From Candidatus Coprenecus merdigallinarum (GTDB lineage Bacteria; Bacteroidota; Bacteroidia; Bacteroidales; UBA932): DNA of 33,710 bases. The translations under genes and the position numbers were made by a program. The DNA lies in assembly GCA_018712545.1 (NCBI GenBank), contig DVGV01000010.1, positions 1 through 33,710 of the forward strand, written 5' to 3'. The notes below the pieces were generated by a model. It searched no databases. It saw only the letters and a program-made list of their open reading frames with translations, and had not been told where the DNA came from. The first letter of the stretch is position 1; the number at the start of each line of letters is the position of its first letter. Shown in pieces: positions 4,531 to 12,857 of this stretch.

Positions 4531-4559
4531 GGTCTTGTTCTAAATGTGCTGTATGACTG

Positions 4560-4567
4560 CAAATGTA
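4560..4567 (-). promoter_or_regulatory. Candidate -7 box for the isoaspartyl peptidase/DPP IV unit
   Basis: Minus-strand TACATTTG matches TAnnTTTG and lies about 30 bases upstream of the ATG. No good -33 element is seen at the standard distance. Confidence 0.4.
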
Positions 4568-4579
4568 GATAAAATTTTG

Positions 4580-4587
4580 TATCTTTA
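4580..4587 (+). promoter_or_regulatory. Candidate -7 box for pepP and the hydrogenase-sensor genes
   Basis: TATCTTTA is a one-mismatch form of TAnnTTTG in the divergent region, about 30 bases upstream of the chosen pepP start. No clear -33 element is visible. Confidence 0.35.
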
Positions 4588-4618
4588 CCACCTGATACAA
4601 CCTATAAAACCTAATGCC

Positions 4619-6016
4619 ATGTTTTCAAGAGAGACCTACATCGAAAGAAGGGCGAGGCTCGTGGCTGATATGAAATACCACGGCGAGTCCGGACTCCTTC
4701 TCTTTCTCGGCAACGATGAGGCCGGGATGAATTATGCAGACAACACATACCCATATCGCCAGGACTCCACATTCCTGTATTTCTTCGGTCTGGATTGCGC
4801 CGGACTGTCCGCGATAGTGGATATAGACGAGGGAGTATCCACGGTGTTCGGCGACGAGCTGACGGTTGACGACATCGTGTGGACGGGCAGCCGGCCCACT
4901 CTCCGCCAGCAGTGCGACAAGGCCGGAGTGGACCGCACCGAGCCGGTGGATAAGCTCAAGGACAGGGTCCAGAGGGCCATGAACAAAGGCCGTATGGTAC
5001 ATTTCCTGCCGCCATACAGACCAGAGCACGCGCTCAAGATATTCAGCCTGCTGGGACTTCCTGTGCAGGTCCAGACCGAGAATGTCTCGATTCCGTTCGT
5101 CAAGGCGGTGGTGAACATGCGCAACCACAAGTCTCCTGAGGAGATTGACCATATCGAGGAGGCGGTGGATATCTCCGTAGAGATGCATCAGGCCATGATG
5201 CGGATGGTACGTCCGGGCATATCGGAGGCGGAAGTGGCCTCGGCGGTGACCGAGATTGCCTTGAGGAAGGGAGCCGGCCTGTCATTCCCGGTCATAGCCA
5301 CTGTGAACGGCCAGACGCTGCATAACCATTACCACGGCAACATCCTCCGGGAAGGCGACCTCTTCCTGCTCGATGCCGGTGCCGAGAACGGCATGCACTA
5401 TGCCGGTGATCTATCATCCACCGCTCCTGTCAGCAGACGTTTCACGGATCAGCAGAAGATGATATACGATATGGCGCTGCACGCCCATACCGTCGCAGTG
5501 GATGCTCTGAGACCCGGTATTGCCTTCCGTGAGATTCATCTCAAGGTGGCCGAGACCATCGCCGCTGACCTCAAGAGCATCGGTCTGGTGACCGGAGATC
5601 CGGCCGAGGTGGCGCATGAGGGAGCCTACGCCATGTTCTTCCCCTGCGGTCTGGGCCATATGATGGGACTGGATGTACACGACATGGAGAACCTGGGCGA
5701 GGTATGGGTAGGATACGACGGTCATCCCAAGAGCGCTACCTTCGGTTTCAAGTCCCTGCGCCTGGCCCGTCCCCTGGAGCCCGGCTTCGTACTCACCATC
5801 GAGCCCGGTATCTATTTCATTCCCGAGCTGATAGACCTGTGGAGGAACCAGGGCAAGTTCAAGAATTTCCTCAATTATGACGAGATAGAGAAGTTCAAGG
5901 GCTTCGGCGGCCTGCGCAACGAGGAGGACTACCTCATCACTCCCGACGGCAAGCGCCGGCTCGGACATCTCTACAAGCCCATGACTGCCGACGAGGTGGA
6001 GGCAATGAAACAGTAA
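4619..6016 (+). CDS. pepP: Xaa-Pro aminopeptidase (family M24B)
   Basis: Cytosolic metallopeptidase removing the N-terminal residue from X-Pro peptides. The start is set at the ATG at 4619 (MFSRETYIERRA), giving 465 residues; the frame is open back to 4544, but that leader is unlike the family and overlaps the promoter region. An aminopeptidase P N-terminal domain (creatinase-like, about 1-170) is followed by the pita-bread catalytic domain. Metal ligands are visible: the two Asp in LLDAGAENGMHYAGD, His in GHMMGLDVHD, Glu in TIEPGIYF and Glu in GLRNEEDYL. The next gene starts 19 bases after the stop, so it may be cotranscribed with the hydrogenase-sensor set, although no functional link is obvious. 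Confidence 0.95.
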   Translation: MFSRETYIERRARLVADMKYHGESGLLLFLGNDEAGMNYADNTYPYRQDSTFLYFFGLDCAGLSAIVDIDEGVSTVFGDELTVDDIVWTGSRPTLRQQCDKAGVDRTEPVDKLKDRVQRAMNKGRMVHFLPPYRPEHALKIFSLLGLPVQVQTENVSIPFVKAVVNMRNHKSPEEIDHIEEAVDISVEMHQAMMRMVRPGISEAEVASAVTEIALRKGAGLSFPVIATVNGQTLHNHYHGNILREGDLFLLDAGAENGMHYAGDLSSTAPVSRRFTDQQKMIYDMALHAHTVAVDALRPGIAFREIHLKVAETIAADLKSIGLVTGDPAEVAHEGAYAMFFPCGLGHMMGLDVHDMENLGEVWVGYDGHPKSATFGFKSLRLARPLEPGFVLTIEPGIYFIPELIDLWRNQGKFKNFLNYDEIEKFKGFGGLRNEEDYLITPDGKRRLGHLYKPMTADEVEAMKQ

Positions 6017-6035
6017 TCCACTATAACACAGGACA

Positions 6036-6314
6036 ATGATAGTTAAAATCTGCATAGGAAGCTCCTGCCACCTCAAAGGCTCCTACGACGTGGTCGAGGG
6101 CATGAAGGAAATGCTCCGCAAGTACGACGTGGAGGAGCTCATCGAACTTCAGGCCAGTTTCTGCTTCGGACAGTGCGCCGACGGAGTCGTAATGAGGGCC
6201 GAGGAGGCTCTCGACGGCTCCGCGGACGTGTTCGTCCGGGGAGTCAATAAGGACAATATCGAGGAAAAGTTCCTCACGGAAGTGTATTCCAGGCTCGGCC
6301 TGCCCCAGCCGTAA
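6036..6314 (+). CDS. Thioredoxin-like [2Fe-2S] protein (NuoE/HndA C-terminal-domain type)
   Basis: A 92-residue cytosolic protein with four cysteines in the pattern of thioredoxin-like [2Fe-2S] domains: CIGSSC (Cys6 and Cys11) and CFGQC (Cys43 and Cys47). This is the C-terminal half of NuoE/HndA subunits standing alone, without the N-terminal helical part. It probably carries electrons, or serves as a redox partner, for the hydrogenase-like protein encoded 30 bases downstream. The ending GVNKDNIEEKF also fits the family. Its tight position between pepP and the hydrogenase-like gene supports cotranscription. It is a pairing often seen with PAS-type [FeFe] hydrogenases (general family knowledge, not checked here). 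Confidence 0.87.
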   Translation: MIVKICIGSSCHLKGSYDVVEGMKEMLRKYDVEELIELQASFCFGQCADGVVMRAEEALDGSADVFVRGVNKDNIEEKFLTEVYSRLGLPQP

Positions 6315-6344
6315 CCCGGGGCCCGCTACAGACAATCCAGACTT

Positions 6345-8105
6345 ATGAAAGAATATCTCGAATTTAAGAAAGCCCGGTGCAAGGACTGCTACAAATGTCT
6401 CAGGGAATGCCCGGTGAAAGCCATTGAGGTCAAGAACCATCAGGCTCAGATCATCAAGGAACGGTGTATCCTCTGCGGACGCTGTACCGTAGTCTGCCCT
6501 CAGAATGCCAAGATCGTCCACAGCGAGAAGGAGGAGGTGGACGCCCTCCTGCTTTCTGGGGACAATGTGGTGGCGAGCATTGCCCCGTCCTTCATATCCT
6601 CCTTCCGTCTTCAGAGCTTCGCCCAGATGGAGGCAGTGCTGCTCAAGCTCGGCTTCGCCTTTGCCGAGGAGACGGCCGTCGGAGCCAATGCCGTGACGAA
6701 GGAGTACGCCAGGTGCATTGCCACAGGAGAGTATAAGAATTTCATCACCTCCGCCTGTCCGGCCCTCTGCCGCCTCATCCAGGAGTACCATCCCGATGCC
6801 CTGAAGTACCTCGCACCGGTGGATTCCCCGATGATTGCCCATGCCAAGATGCTGAGGCAGAGGTTCCCCGGCTGCAAGGTTATTTTCATAGGACCCTGCA
6901 TTGCCAAGAAGCGGGAGGCCCGTGAGAGCGGACTGATAGCCGGAGTGCTGACCTTCGAGGACCTGCGCCGGCTGATGGTCGAGAGGGGACTTACCTTCCC
7001 CCTGCCTGATGCTGTGGCCCTGGAGGGGGAGAAATACGGCTGCACCGGTATCTCAGGAGATGCTCCTGCCAACCGCAGCAAGTCCTATCCGGTCCGCCGG
7101 GGCATCATTCATGCGTTCGAGGCGCGTCCCCAGGGATACGACTATGTGGCAGTGGACGGTCCGCTGAACTGCGTCAATACGCTGGAGAATATCGAAAAGG
7201 TAAGCGGGGTGTTCTTCGAGATGAATATGTGTGAGAATGCCTGTGTCAGCGGTCCTTGCAGTCTGATAGGTGACGGTGAGGGAGTGAGGGCTACGGTCGA
7301 TGTGAAACGGTATGTGCGGCATGAGTGCGAGGTGCTGCGGCCTGAGAAGGAGGGCGACCGCGAATACACCGTGGATATTTCCGCGGCATATCCCAGGATC
7401 GAGAACAGGAGCCTGATACCTGCCCCGGAGCAGATAGAGGAGATACTCCGCCGCACCGGCAAGTTCAAGCCCGAGGACGAACTCAACTGCGGCTCCTGCG
7501 GTTACCCTACCTGCCGCGAGAAGGCCTGGGCCGTGTTCAACGGCTATGCCGACATAGACATCTGCCTGCCCTACATGCGCGAGAGGGCCGAGTCCATGTC
7601 CTACGAGATCATTCACAACAGTCCCGAGGGCATCGTCGTCCTGGACAGCGACATGAATGTGGTGGACATCAATGCCAAGGCCCGCGAGCTCCTGGGCATC
7701 ACCACCGTCAATGTCAAGGGTCTGCCGGCCGTCGACTTCTTCAATCCCACCGAGTTCCTCATCGCCCAGAACTCCGGAAAGCAGTACGTGCGCAAGAAGA
7801 TGTACGTCTCCGAGACCCGGAGGCATATCGACCTGTCCATCAGCATCCTCAAGAGCAACCACGCCCTCTTCGGCATCCTCAAGGACATCACCGACGAGGT
7901 GCAGTACAGCGAGAAACTGGGCAAGATGCGCATGGAGACCCTGGCCACCACCGACGACGTGATCAAGAAGCAGATGCGCGTGGCCCAGGAGATCGCCTCG
8001 CTGCTGGGTGAGACCACGGCCGAGACCAAGGTGGCCCTGCTCAAGCTCAAGAAGACCCTCATGCAGGAAGAGGAGGAGAGGGGAAAGTCCGAGGGAAAAG
8101 CCTAA
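6345..8105 (+). CDS. Sensory-type [FeFe]-hydrogenase-like protein with Fe-S and PAS domains (HydS-like, group C)
   Basis: A 586-residue cytosolic protein. Domains in order: two [4Fe-4S] clusters (Cys12/15/18/22 and Cys41/44/47/51); H-cluster domain about 70-330; a four-Cys Fe-S domain about 375-410 (NCGSCGYPTC, Cys382/385/390 and Cys407); PAS domain about 418-520; and a C-terminal helical segment likely to form a coiled coil. H-cluster motifs are present but altered: L1 TSACPA (Cys138 kept, while the preceding proton-relay Cys is Ala137), L2 GPCIAKKRE (Cys185) and L3 EMNMCENAC (Cys296 and Cys300). All four ligands to the H-cluster are therefore retained. The Cys-to-Ala change and the PAS tail fit sensory rather than catalytic enzymes. 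The SpoIIE-type phosphatase gene 18 bases downstream suggests the phosphatase-linked subgroup. H-cluster assembly would need HydE, HydF and HydG, which are not in this window. Confidence 0.92.
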   Translation: MKEYLEFKKARCKDCYKCLRECPVKAIEVKNHQAQIIKERCILCGRCTVVCPQNAKIVHSEKEEVDALLLSGDNVVASIAPSFISSFRLQSFAQMEAVLLKLGFAFAEETAVGANAVTKEYARCIATGEYKNFITSACPALCRLIQEYHPDALKYLAPVDSPMIAHAKMLRQRFPGCKVIFIGPCIAKKREARESGLIAGVLTFEDLRRLMVERGLTFPLPDAVALEGEKYGCTGISGDAPANRSKSYPVRRGIIHAFEARPQGYDYVAVDGPLNCVNTLENIEKVSGVFFEMNMCENACVSGPCSLIGDGEGVRATVDVKRYVRHECEVLRPEKEGDREYTVDISAAYPRIENRSLIPAPEQIEEILRRTGKFKPEDELNCGSCGYPTCREKAWAVFNGYADIDICLPYMRERAESMSYEIIHNSPEGIVVLDSDMNVVDINAKARELLGITTVNVKGLPAVDFFNPTEFLIAQNSGKQYVRKKMYVSETRRHIDLSISILKSNHALFGILKDITDEVQYSEKLGKMRMETLATTDDVIKKQMRVAQEIASLLGETTAETKVALLKLKKTLMQEEEERGKSEGKA

Positions 8106-8123
8106 TGCTCAGGAGGGACGCTT

Positions 8124-9287
8124 ATGAAGGAACTGTTTATAGAATACGGATACGTCTCCCTGAACAAGTACGGGGAGGAGCTCTGCGGGGACAATGTCGA
8201 ATGGGTGACCGTCGACGGCTACACCACCCTCGTGCTGGCCGACGGGCTGGGCAGCGGGGTGAAGGCCAACATCCTTTCCACTCTGTCCTCGAAGATACTC
8301 TGTACGATGGTCTCCAACAACATCCCCATCGAGGACTGCATCGAGACCATGATCCAGACCCTGCCGGTGTGCAAGGTGCGCGGGGTGGCCTATTCGACCT
8401 TCTCGGTCATACACGTGGATGCTTTCGGCAGGGGATATCTCTTCGAGTTCGACAATCCTCAGGCGATATATTATCACGACGGCCGCTGCATCGACTTCGA
8501 CCGCAAGCCCCTGGAGGTGCTGGGCAAGAAGGTCTACCATTCGGAACTGTCGCTGTGCGACGGGGATGTGGTGATGGTCATGTCCGACGGCACGATACAC
8601 GCCGGTATCGGGCGGGTGCTCAATTTCGGCTGGGACCGCCGCGAGATCATGGAGCATCTGGACCGCAATATCCAGCCGGAGATGTCCGCCCGCTGCGTGG
8701 CCTGGCTACTGGCCGCCGCCTGCAACGACCTGTACATGGACAAGCCCGGCGACGATACCACCGTGGCCGCGCTGAAGATGCGTGAGGCCCTGCACGTCAA
8801 TCTCATGGTAGGCCCTCCGGTCAATAAGGAGAACGACGACTACTACGTGGGCAAGTTCATGGAGGGCGACAGCAAGAAGGTGGTCTGCGGAGGCACCAGC
8901 TCCCAGATCGTGGCCCGCTACCTGGGCAAGAAGGTGACTACGAGTCTTGACTTTCCGGATAAGGACATTCCGCCCATCGGGCACATCGACGGCATCGACC
9001 TTACGACCGAGGGCGTGATTACCCTGCGCCGCCTCCTCGAGCTGACCGAGAAGTATATCTCGCCCAATGACCTCACTCCAAAGATGTTCACAAAGCAGGA
9101 CGGAGCCTCGCTCCTGGCAGAGATGCTGTTGGAGAAGGCAACCCACATCACCTTCTTCGTAGGTCAGGGAGTAAACAAGGCCCACGAGGGTCTGCCCATA
9201 GATACTACATTGAAACTCAAATTAATAGAACGCCTTGCCGCTAACCTCAAGGCTATCGGCAAGGTCGTCGAGATTCATTACGCCTGA
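8124..9287 (+). CDS. SpoIIE-type PP2C phosphatase with an extra C-terminal domain
   Basis: Predicted metal-dependent Ser/Thr protein phosphatase, 387 residues, cytosolic. The SpoIIE/PP2C core is about residues 1-220, with metal-binding Asp motifs CGDN (Asp23), LADGLGSG (Asp40), MSDGTIHAG (Asp155) and GDDTTVAAL (Asp210/211). Residues about 221-387 form a second region that I do not recognise; it includes VVCGGTSSQIVARYLG and ends VEIHYA. It follows the hydrogenase-like gene by 18 bases, so the phosphatase is the likely output of that sensor. SpoIIE-type enzymes usually act on STAS-domain anti-anti-sigma proteins; no STAS protein or anti-sigma kinase is in the window, so the substrate is unknown. 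Confidence 0.9.
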   Translation: MKELFIEYGYVSLNKYGEELCGDNVEWVTVDGYTTLVLADGLGSGVKANILSTLSSKILCTMVSNNIPIEDCIETMIQTLPVCKVRGVAYSTFSVIHVDAFGRGYLFEFDNPQAIYYHDGRCIDFDRKPLEVLGKKVYHSELSLCDGDVVMVMSDGTIHAGIGRVLNFGWDRREIMEHLDRNIQPEMSARCVAWLLAAACNDLYMDKPGDDTTVAALKMREALHVNLMVGPPVNKENDDYYVGKFMEGDSKKVVCGGTSSQIVARYLGKKVTTSLDFPDKDIPPIGHIDGIDLTTEGVITLRRLLELTEKYISPNDLTPKMFTKQDGASLLAEMLLEKATHITFFVGQGVNKAHEGLPIDTTLKLKLIERLAANLKAIGKVVEIHYA

Positions 9288-11320: not shown

Positions 11321-12028
11321 TTACTTCGGGAATAATTCGGAGAGGGTGGAGGTGTAGAGGTTGCCGTAGCTGTCTGAGTTGTAGACGGTGACGTGGGAGC
11401 CGGGGGTGTGGTTGTAGAGCTGGTAGTAGAGGTCGGCCATGGTCCAGTCGGTGCGCTCGGAGACAGCCTGGCGGAAGGCGGCGGAGATGCGGTCGGAGAG
11501 GTAGACGTTCAGGTCGGGGTCGAAGTTCTCGGCCTTGGATGTCTCGTTGGGGTTGGCGGCGGTGTAGAGCAGGGCTCCGGGGATGCCCTCGCAGGCTTCG
11601 GCCACGCTGTCGGCGAAGCACGCTTCTATCAGGCACAGCAGCTTGCGGTATTTTCCGCCTGAGTGCATGCCCTCGACCACTGCCCGGAACCATGCCGGAT
11701 CCTGCCAGTGGTCTCCGTATATCAGATAGCCTGGGCTGCCGTGCCCGCACCAGTACAGCCGCACATTGTCCGTGGAGTCCGAGTCCAGCTCCCGCGTGAG
11801 TATCTCCAGCAGTCTGTCCGGTGTCAGTGAGGAGAGACTGTAGTCCACCCCGATATCCTCTCCGTATAGGTTAGGCCCGTCGGCAGAGGTGCGGACGTTG
11901 CCGGGAAAGAGGTTCTCGCTGTGATATGCCAGGTTGTTCTCGAGGACGAGGGTGATGTCCTTGTCCGTGTAGCCCATGTCGAGGAGTATGCGGTACAGGT
12001 CCATTACGGCTGTCCATCCGCAGGACAA
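11321..12028 (-). CDS. C13 family (legumain-like) cysteine peptidase domain, lacking its own proper start
   Basis: About 235 residues matching the caspase-like C13 fold. Visible features: CGW.AVMDLYRILLDMGY followed by ITLVLENN (second strand), the NLYGEDIGVDY segment, catalytic His in YWCGHGSPG and catalytic Cys in LIEACFADS, then LLYTAANPNETS. The nominal first codon is TTG and no signal peptide precedes it. The first strand of the domain seems to be missing from this frame; a plausible one (RIDRAVVL) lies just upstream in the frame of the BMP-like lipoprotein, one base out of phase. The peptidase is therefore probably the C-terminal half of a BMP-C13 fusion broken by a +1 shift, or it is translated by coupling from the overlapping gene. 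As an isolated protein it would lack an export signal. The next in-frame ATG, at 12002-12004, would shorten the fold further. Confidence 0.8.
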   Translation of the reverse strand: MSCGWTAVMDLYRILLDMGYTDKDITLVLENNLAYHSENLFPGNVRTSADGPNLYGEDIGVDYSLSSLTPDRLLEILTRELDSDSTDNVRLYWCGHGSPGYLIYGDHWQDPAWFRAVVEGMHSGGKYRKLLCLIEACFADSVAEACEGIPGALLYTAANPNETSKAENFDPDLNVYLSDRISAAFRQAVSERTDWTMADLYYQLYNHTPGSHVTVYNSDSYGNLYTSTLSELFPK

Positions 12029-12857
12029 CGGCGCGGTCGATGCGCTTGATCATCGAGCAGCACATATTGTCGGGGGCCAGGTCGGACTGGTCCATGTCCA
12101 TGCCCACTACCATCCACGGACCGTTGTAGTCGCGCATGTATCTGTACATTCCCAGGGCAGTGCCTCCGGCGTAGGGGAAGAAGAAGTCGTAGCGGGCGGT
12201 CAGGTCCGGGCACATCCGGTACAGGCTGTCGGCCATGTAGAATCCGCTGTATCCGTCCGAAAGCTCGATGACGTCCACGCTGTCCGGATGTTCCGCATCG
12301 GCACCCAGGCAGAATGCCTCAGCCGCTGCCAGTGACTGAGGGTCGGAGAGGGTGGCGGCGATGACAGCGGGCGTGCGGTCCAGGGAGTCGGCCACGCATC
12401 CGGCCAGATAAGCGGCGGACATGGCTACTATCCCTATGGTATGCACCGGCAGGTCGTCGGCGAAATATTCCAGCATCATGATGTCCTTGCCCTCGGGCAG
12501 CGGAAATGCTCCGTCACTCATCAGTTCCCTTACCGTAACCTCGTAGTCGGAGGCTCCAAGGACGAAGAGGCTGCGGGTGCCTTCGGCCTGCGGTTCGCTG
12601 AGCCATTGTTTTACTGTGGGATAGATTTCCTCTGCGCTTCCGGGGCGGTAGTAGTACAGTCCGAAGTCGTACCGGTTGGCAGCTGCTGATATGCCGCCGA
12701 AGATGATGTCATTGTACCCCATGTCCCCTAAGCCTCCGGGAGAGATGGCCCAGTGCACCGTGACATCGTCCCGCACGGGATTGTCCGGTCCGGTCTTGGT
12801 ACAGCCGGTCAGGATGGTCAGCAGGATGGCCGGGATTATGTATTTGATTGAGCGCAT
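11871..12857 (-). CDS. BMP-family (PnrA-like) substrate-binding lipoprotein
   Basis: Lipoprotein related to basic-membrane-protein/nucleoside-binding ABC receptors. A signal peptide with lipobox LTGC (Cys19) is followed by family landmarks: GGLGDMGYNDIIFGGI (N-terminal ligand loop), LFVLGASDYEVT, GIVAMSAAYLAGCVADSL, YAGGTALGMYRYMRD and WMVVGMDMDQ, then CCSMIKRIDRAVV, which corresponds to the family's C-terminal 'SmlKRvDvAV' helix. Family homology ends near residue 282 (about base 12010). The remaining 50 or so codons (to 11871) are read out of phase through the C13 peptidase region and have a Pro/Arg/His-rich shadow composition, so they are unlikely to be genuine. No ABC ATPase or permease is nearby. 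This suggests the domain senses or binds a ligand for the fused or coupled peptidase rather than serving transport. Confidence 0.85.
   Translation of the reverse strand: MRSIKYIIPAILLTILTGCTKTGPDNPVRDDVTVHWAISPGGLGDMGYNDIIFGGISAAANRYDFGLYYYRPGSAEEIYPTVKQWLSEPQAEGTRSLFVLGASDYEVTVRELMSDGAFPLPEGKDIMMLEYFADDLPVHTIGIVAMSAAYLAGCVADSLDRTPAVIAATLSDPQSLAAAEAFCLGADAEHPDSVDVIELSDGYSGFYMADSLYRMCPDLTARYDFFFPYAGGTALGMYRYMRDYNGPWMVVGMDMDQSDLAPDNMCCSMIKRIDRAVVLRMDSRNGPVPHTPRHGLHGQGHHPRPREQPGISQREPLSRQRPHLCRRA

Follow-up and report, generated by a model that had tools for sequence, protein, structure and literature searches.

A stand-alone HfsABC-type module in Candidatus Coprenecus merdigallinarum: a group C [FeFe]-hydrogenase homologue with a conserved tail that may couple it to a SpoIIE-type phosphatase

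In the HydDB classification, group C3 of the [FeFe]-hydrogenases is listed as 'Phosphatase-linked (putative)', and the available portion of that description proposes that its members possibly sense H2 via Ser/Thr phosphatases (PMC5037454). A related layout is known from the hfsABCD cluster of Thermoanaerobacterium saccharolyticum and T. thermosaccharolyticum. According to the accessible text, HfsB is a PAS-bearing [FeFe]-hydrogenase, HfsC is a serine-phosphatase homologue, and HfsD is a hydrogenase (PMC11837493). It was reported, in the accessible part of another study, that deletion of hfsA or hfsB in T. saccharolyticum raises the ethanol yield and that this effect needs hfsC and hfsD (PMC5707799). 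Here I describe three adjacent genes on the plus strand of a 33,710-nucleotide stretch of DNA from Candidatus Coprenecus merdigallinarum (contig DVGV01000010.1; the whole stretch is called the window below). They encode a 92-residue [2Fe-2S] protein, a 586-residue [FeFe]-hydrogenase homologue (HydS), and a 387-residue SpoIIE-type phosphatase. I propose, with a probability of roughly 0.7, that this trio is a stand-alone HfsABC/C3 module in which the C-terminal tail of HydS couples an H2 or redox signal to the phosphatase.

The window agrees with the C3 description in having a group C HydS gene and an adjoining Ser/Thr phosphatase gene, which matches the proposed role, whereas a coupling mechanism, the tail, a second phosphatase domain, and H-cluster-poor relatives do not appear in the available text on C3 (PMC5037454). 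The hfsA-hfsB-hfsC gene order is also found in the window, with the sensor before the phosphatase and a PAS domain on the HfsB counterpart; the first gene was equated with hfsA by its position. In contrast to hfsABCD, the trio has no hfsD behind the phosphatase gene, and its first product is a thioredoxin-like [2Fe-2S] protein, while HfsA is described, as far as the source is accessible, as poorly alignable to known proteins and partly like hydrogenase large subunits in structure (PMC11837493). This comparison with hfs relies on published descriptions rather than on an alignment of the Thermoanaerobacterium proteins themselves. Judged by the adjoining phosphatase gene and a tree, rather than by the HydDB tool, the trio is assigned to the C3 or hfsABC class. 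A further likeness is to the phosphatases RsbP and RsbU, where a PAS domain (or RsbT) gives the input and a helical segment controls a PPM phosphatase. In RsbU this helical linker lies before the PPM domain, and RsbP works likewise according to genetic data and prediction, as the accessible text has it (PMC12143880). However, RsbP holds sensor, linker, and phosphatase in one chain, while the window has two chains and a hydrogenase homologue as the sensor. Partial sources on characterised sensory enzymes give Ala at the proton-relay position of Thermotoga maritima HydS (TmHydS, group C), as in the window, and the Cx2Cx4Cx16C motif and accessory clusters of the window HydS in both TmHydS and TamHydS of T. 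mathranii (group D); unlike the window HydS, TamHydS is without a PAS domain. They also state that in group D the C-terminal cluster, the obvious relay, is not reduced by H2. The kind of system found here is already catalogued, and what is added is the tail, the exchangeable sensor part, and a candidate target.

I aligned 87 phosphatase-linked HydS sequences (77 from 80 loci, that of the window, and 9 from genomes of relatives). Over 84 of these rows, three same-genus rows being dropped, tail residues 540-572 had a mean conservation of 0.81, the highest of eight HydS segments compared; the C-terminal Fe-S motif scored 0.74, the N-terminal ferredoxin part 0.67, the H-domain 0.54, and PAS 0.47. 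A tail profile of 47 positions was built from 21 rows, and it matched the window tail, itself one of the rows, with an E value of 1.1e-23. On the fetched loci it matched 136 of 136 group C HydS (HydS_C), some of which had built the profile, and none of 3 histidine-kinase-fused HydS, 6 group D-like HydS (HydS_D), and 100 catalytic hydrogenases. The tail profile and a phosphatase profile were then run on the same 295 Bacteroidales genomes. Each was found in 101 genomes, with 100 in common out of 102 with either; genome G158 has a tail without a phosphatase, and G200 a phosphatase without a tail. The copy numbers are equal in 98 of the 102, and 110 of 119 tails lie at most 1 kb upstream of a phosphatase gene of the same orientation, at a median of 26 bases. 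At least one tail gene and one phosphatase gene are on different contigs in G091, G181, G274, and the single-genus group G113, G216, and G305. Thus, both the gene order and the almost complete co-occurrence of tail and phosphatase support the pairing of sensor and phosphatase that the earlier note had suggested, and the conserved and probably helical tail is likely the physical link between the two. The 'A-x-x-VQ-x-x-LLP' helix of RsbU-type phosphatases was considered as a counterpart of the tail; the register differs, and homology is not claimed. Searches of the open-access literature, none of them aimed at the tail itself, brought up no description of this tail, of phosphatase-linked HydS without an H-cluster, or of PAS-PAS-tail proteins.

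The phosphatase keeps Asp23, Asp40, Asp155, Asp210, and Asp211 in 88 of 88 sequences, and among these are, as in the family, the metal-binding residues of the active site. Its predicted structure (predicted local distance difference test score 88) opens with a strand at residues 5-13 with no preceding helix. Helices 45-64 and 69-79 correspond in position to the PPM switch helices, and the tail would be expected to dock there. Since the model has no N-terminal helix and the linker is the controlling element in RsbU and RsbP, it is proposed that HydS may supply the linker element in trans, like a 'split RsbP'. The C-terminal 168 residues form a second domain, overlooked by the earlier note, with no Pfam match over the cut-off. 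This domain may bind a ligand. GPP, GG, EG, and N-x-AH motifs and two Lys residues are invariant in it across the family.

The proposed mechanism is as follows. HydS brings together the site of an H-cluster, a pair of ferredoxin clusters at the N-terminus, a [4Fe-4S] cluster near the C-terminus, PAS, and the tail. H2, or the redox poise conveyed to HydS by its clusters and the [2Fe-2S] partner, would alter the PAS/tail region. The tail would then dock on the SpoIIE-type phosphatase, which has no N-terminal regulatory helix of its own, and set its activity in an RsbP-like way, and the phosphatase would dephosphorylate a Ser/Thr target with a tuning role in fermentative H2 metabolism. I infer H2 as the ligand, the docking, and the sign of control; a restraint of the phosphatase by the sensor fits the dependence of the hfsA/hfsB deletion effect on hfsC and hfsD.

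Table 1. Features of the trio and of the gene upstream of it, in window coordinates
Feature	Position	Strand	Basis
HfsA-position thioredoxin-fold [2Fe-2S] protein, 92 residues	6036..6314	+	2Fe-2S_thioredx PF01257
HydS, PAS-bearing [FeFe]-hydrogenase homologue of group C, HfsB-like, 586 residues	6345..8105	+	Pfam, tree
N-terminal double [4Fe-4S] ferredoxin domain, 8 Cys	6366..6512	+	PF13237/PF00037
H-domain, Cys138, Cys185, Cys296, Cys300, and Ala137	6564..7256	+	Fe_hyd_lg_C PF02906, E 2.6e-37
C-terminal [4Fe-4S] motif Cx2Cx4Cx16C	7482..7571	+	FeS PF04060, E 5e-10
PAS domain of HydS	7605..7919	+	PF00989, E 1.9e-7; TIGR00229, 28.7 bits
HydS C-terminal tail with its core at residues 540-572, putative link to the phosphatase	7932..8069	+	Conservation, tail profile
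HfsC-like SpoIIE-type (PPM) serine phosphatase, 387 residues	8124..9287	+	PF07228; profile matches 5mqh, SpoIIE 3t91/5ucg
PPM catalytic domain, residues 31-219	8214..8780	+	SpoIIE PF07228, E 5.1e-12
C-terminal Rossmann-like domain of phosphatase	8787..9284	+	Family conservation
Xaa-Pro aminopeptidase-type peptidase gene	4544..6016	+	PF00557, PF05195

As shown in Table 1, the open reading frames (ORFs) and Pfam matches bear out three genes with intergenic gaps of 30 and 18 bases, as well as the extra Fe-S domain and the PAS domain that the earlier note had seen in HydS; an alignment agreed with its four H-cluster Cys residues and Ala137. The PF01257 match of the first protein is marginal (E 1.8e-5, 25.1 bits against a cut-off of 24.8), and its ligands Cys6, Cys11, Cys43, and Cys47 are kept in 90 of 90 aligned sequences. 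Several Fer4 models match HydS, and its C-terminal Fe-S motif is C382-x2-C385-x4-C390-x16-C407, a motif described for sensory HydS in the accessible text of PMC8163306. The 8 N-terminal and 4 C-terminal accessory-cluster Cys are invariant among the 87 HydS, and 86 of these, the window included, have the complete H-cluster Cys set. Ala137 had been taken as a contrast to catalytic enzymes that would mark a sensor. It was rejected as a hallmark, Cys being the commoner residue at this position (Cys in 47 and Ala in 35 of the 87 phosphatase-linked HydS). For sensory enzymes the proton-relay position is given as 17% Cys and about 43% Ala in the available part of the source (PMC10055695).

Since the best NCBIfam match of HydS, a group B1 model, is far below its cut-off (159 bits against 450), a tree was needed for its class. 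In a tree of 65 H-domain sequences and 270 columns, whose groups were labelled by gene context and NCBIfam rather than by HydDB reference sequences, the window HydS falls in a clade of 31 phosphatase-linked HydS and 5 histidine-kinase-fused HydS (bootstrap 98). Group D-like HydS (bootstrap 100) and group B (98) both stand apart from this HydS_C clade, as does group A, whose 12 rows are not one clade under the rooting used. The window HydS does not lie among the catalytic group A or B enzymes, so the tree upholds the earlier assignment to the PAS-type, phosphatase-linked group C, and the window HydS is classed here as a group C [FeFe]-hydrogenase homologue. The earlier note had also pointed to HydEFG. 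Of these three, HydF was searched for and is present in the same genome at 430 bits (cut-off 325.55). Elsewhere this genome encodes a HydABC enzyme, a group B hydrogenase (contig C12), and a group D-like HydS (457 residues, contig C84). The C12 hydrogenase (TIGR04105, 510 bits) was considered as a relocated hfsD; its neighbours in the tree are L041_B and L205_B rather than the HfsD rows, and it is probably not a moved hfsD. It could nevertheless be a functional partner.

The window is contig C71 of genome G000 (2.2 Mb, 88 contigs, 87% complete; labels beginning with G, C, and L denote genomes, contigs, and loci). Is the trio common in the genus and beyond? DNA of all three genes was matched in 9 of 9 same-genus loci from 8 distinct genomes (L046 and L051 belong to one genome), and a HydS search matched 15 of 18 same-genus relatives. 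For public genomes, I compared the best 80 of at least 565 stretches that encode relatives of the phosphatase, with gene labels from best BLAST hits, which are weak where the match is short. Among the 76 loci with enough upstream DNA, HydS lies upstream of the phosphatase in all 76, its ORF ending between -571 and +152 bases from the phosphatase start by longest-ORF calls, and the thioredoxin-like gene is present in 75. The trio is thus kept by same-genus relatives and by more distant ones, and the lack of conservation that would have refuted the reading of the earlier note was not seen. The window phosphatase is 94% identical to its homologue in Candidatus Coprenecus pullistercoris (L051). 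Among the 80 loci its next relatives are in metagenome-assembled genomes of Bacteroidales/Bacteroidetes (66-73%) and in Treponema (67%); the nearest from those of Clostridia/Firmicutes show 60-71% and the rest 43-54%, while six other Bacteroidales phosphatases are merely 30-33% identical. Such a patchy pattern may reflect horizontal transfer of the module. An hfsD-type group B hydrogenase, by best BLAST label, starts at most about 2.3 kb downstream in 59 of 73 loci. None was found after position 9287 in the window, nor within 2.3 kb in L050 and L051. Since the window and L051 stand in the tree beside L052 and L208, whose loci carry an hfsD-type hydrogenase, loss of hfsD in the window line is the simpler reading.

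The exchange of sensor parts was surveyed in 60 stretches around Bacteroidales phosphatases (out of 119 places, taken in handle order, which is not random) plus six earlier loci. This gave 63 phosphatases with more than 2.2 kb upstream and 58 HydS including that of the window. A HydS gene adjoins 57 of the 63 phosphatase genes; in L196 it lies further on in the same direction. All four H-cluster Cys are kept in 41 of the 58 HydS, and 17 are incomplete. The third Cys is changed in 12 (7 Asn, 3 Asp, 2 His), two Cys are lost in one (L207:6955-8820), and all four are lost in four (L043:1728-3674, L209:7048-8964, L200:7294-9171, and L245:4082-5935). The four-Cys losses span two families, L043 and L209 belonging to one genus, and L200 and L245 to two genera of another family. 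All five of these strongly altered HydS adjoin a phosphatase gene and keep the C-terminal Fe-S Cys and the tail; HydF is present in G041, the source genome of L043. The C-terminal [4Fe-4S] Cys are kept in 58 of 58, and Ser or Asn takes the place of the second N-terminal Cys in 8. In two loci, L204 (4967-5893) and L249 (4549-5475), a PAS-PAS-tail protein is encoded directly before the phosphatase, with no match to a hydrogenase or Fe-S domain. From the H-cluster-poor HydS and the PAS-PAS-tail proteins, sensing and coupling parts look separable. Judged from these residues, H2 is unlikely to be read at the H-cluster where the ligands are gone, and such reading can still occur in the window HydS. 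The PAS-PAS-tail gene of L204 is divergent from a DRTGG-RsbW-HydS_D operon.

Such an operon is also a candidate for the downstream side. On contig C84 of the same genome, the HydABC operon (L009:9268-17603) has genes for DRTGG, RsbW-like, group D-like HydS, DRTGG, PHP, HATPase, thioredoxin-like, HydB, HydA, and HydC proteins, the 132-residue thioredoxin-like protein being labelled by reading rather than by Pfam. Its HATPase_c_2 protein has RsbW-type ATP-site motifs. The RsbW-like gene is at L009:16835-17272, and the DRTGG genes are at L009:17247-17603 and L009:15115-15453. The SDL-x-SDV stretch is invariant in 11 of 11 aligned DRTGG proteins. In the 295 genomes, the phosphatase and HydS_D are both present in 65, the phosphatase alone in 36, HydS_D alone in 20, and neither in 174 (Fisher odds ratio 15.7, p 6e-22, with neither kinship nor a common lifestyle corrected for); the two are at most 12 kb apart in 9 of the 65. 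Each of the 18 same-genus relatives has either HydS_C together with HydS_D or neither of them. The HydS_D-RsbW-DRTGG set is near the trio in only two of the 80 loci, L073 and L074. A supposed HydS_D beside the hfs cluster of L066 was withdrawn; this ORF is, by reading, a ferredoxin-bearing activase-like protein with a match of 52 residues only. Placing the target in the RsbW-like kinase and DRTGG set of this operon is a speculative proposal, clearly less likely than not. A broader model, which I hold to be doubtful, sees class C3 sensors as split phosphatase switches and takes the tail of about 45 residues as a code that would let exchangeable sensors (hydrogenase-PAS, pseudo-hydrogenase-PAS without an H-cluster, or PAS-PAS) run one phosphatase family in trans, the H2 sensor being one input of several. 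The phosphatase would oppose the RsbW-like kinase on the DRTGG proteins of the HydABC operon, giving a STAS-free partner switch by which Bacteroidales and Clostridia of the gut and the environment would set their H2 metabolism.

Could HydS instead read the general redox state, with the signal passing through the accessory clusters and the thioredoxin-like partner and the H-domain serving as a scaffold or an electron gate? The incomplete H-clusters of the survey, set against C-terminal [4Fe-4S] Cys kept throughout, speak for this, as do L204 and L249, where a second PAS replaces the hydrogenase part, and genome G037 (98% complete), whose HydS (L191) keeps an intact H-cluster Cys set with no HydF over the cut-off. 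On the other hand, all four Cys are intact in the window protein and in 86 of the 87 HydS aligned first, HydF is present in the window's own genome, and the H-cluster-poor L043, L200, and L202 are in another branch of the tree, away from the window. I consider a purely redox-reading HydS to have a minor share of the probability. The output side has its own alternative, a classical partner switch in which the phosphatase acts on a STAS protein and, through it, on a sigma factor or another such target. It is established that STAS proteins can be targets of SpoIIE-type phosphatases (PMC11418112), and the genome, with three SpoIIE domains, one PF01740 STAS protein, and two HATPase_c_2 proteins above the cut-off, has one such protein with a Ser-Ser-Gly-Leu motif (G000:C62). 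However, this 100-residue protein (L167:7375-7677) is encoded on a different contig from the trio, directly after a 777-residue SpoIIE and HATPase_c_2 fusion, its own likely phosphatase and kinase, and so the set (L167:5026-7677) looks self-contained. It is the sole PF01740 match in the 87%-complete genome, STAS_2 not having been searched. The earlier note was right that no STAS target adjoins the trio, and the partner-switch output through STAS or anti-sigma factors that it had put forward is not supported; I regard it as unlikely.

It is far less probable that HydS and the [2Fe-2S] protein form a catalytic hydrogenase, an electron transfer complex with the phosphatase as a mere neighbour. 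The H-cluster residues are intact, and the HydABC operon of the same genome also has a [2Fe-2S] thioredoxin-like protein, but the PAS and tail architecture, the group C placement, and the co-occurrence of tail and phosphatase are against it, and characterised sensory HydS enzymes are slow according to the available parts of PMC10055695 and PMC8924675. Several observations weigh against the tail-coupled HfsABC/C3 module itself. Most tail-phosphatase pairs are neighbours, so their co-occurrence partly repeats gene linkage, and the unlinked pairs are few (the G091, G181, G274, and G113/G216/G305 cases above). Three of the 63 surveyed phosphatases (L206, L214, and L243) have no nearby tail protein; their genomes (G113, G091, and G181) carry tails elsewhere. 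HydS has no match in 3 of 18 same-genus genomes. Besides G037, the HydS-bearing G003 (86% complete) has no HydF over the cut-off, and H2 sensing is weakened at least in G037 by its intact site and near-complete genome. On the target side, 36 of 101 phosphatase genomes have no HydS_D, none is present at E <= 1e-30 in 15 of 34 phosphatase genomes (of unstated completeness) chosen from among the 80 loci, and the genome of the window has a third SpoIIE phosphatase at C19.

The gene upstream of the trio encodes a peptidase and ends 19 bases before it on the same strand. It is possibly co-transcribed with the trio and is regarded as context outside the module; its DNA was matched in 8 of 9 same-genus loci, the exception being L036. 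Over about 7900-9284, L034 and the window share about 93% DNA identity, against about 78% before; the jump comes near where the HydS tail starts, and the identity stays high through the phosphatase gene, a pattern as after recombination of the tail and phosphatase. In L040, L042, and L043, the trio is oriented divergently to an operon of NuoE, HydB, and HydA genes, at the end of which are a histidine-kinase-fused HydS and response-regulator-type and Rex-like genes (labels by Pfam for three L042 proteins and by BLAST for the rest). Further on in the window, at 11321-12857 on the minus strand, a PnrA/Bmp-like lipoprotein ORF and a C13-family peptidase ORF overlap in different frames; they are possibly one frameshifted gene or two overlapping genes.

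In the available parts of the literature, the role of group C sensory [FeFe]-hydrogenases is called putative, and the module described here is a compact test case of two proteins for how they pass on a signal. It has a concrete predicted interface in the HydS tail, natural controls in the PAS-PAS-tail swaps and the H-cluster-less relatives, and a named putative target in the DRTGG/RsbW-like set. A defined output of this module would be useful in practice, given that hfsB deletion alters the ethanol yield of Thermoanaerobacterium and that fermentation in the gut is shaped by H2 production.

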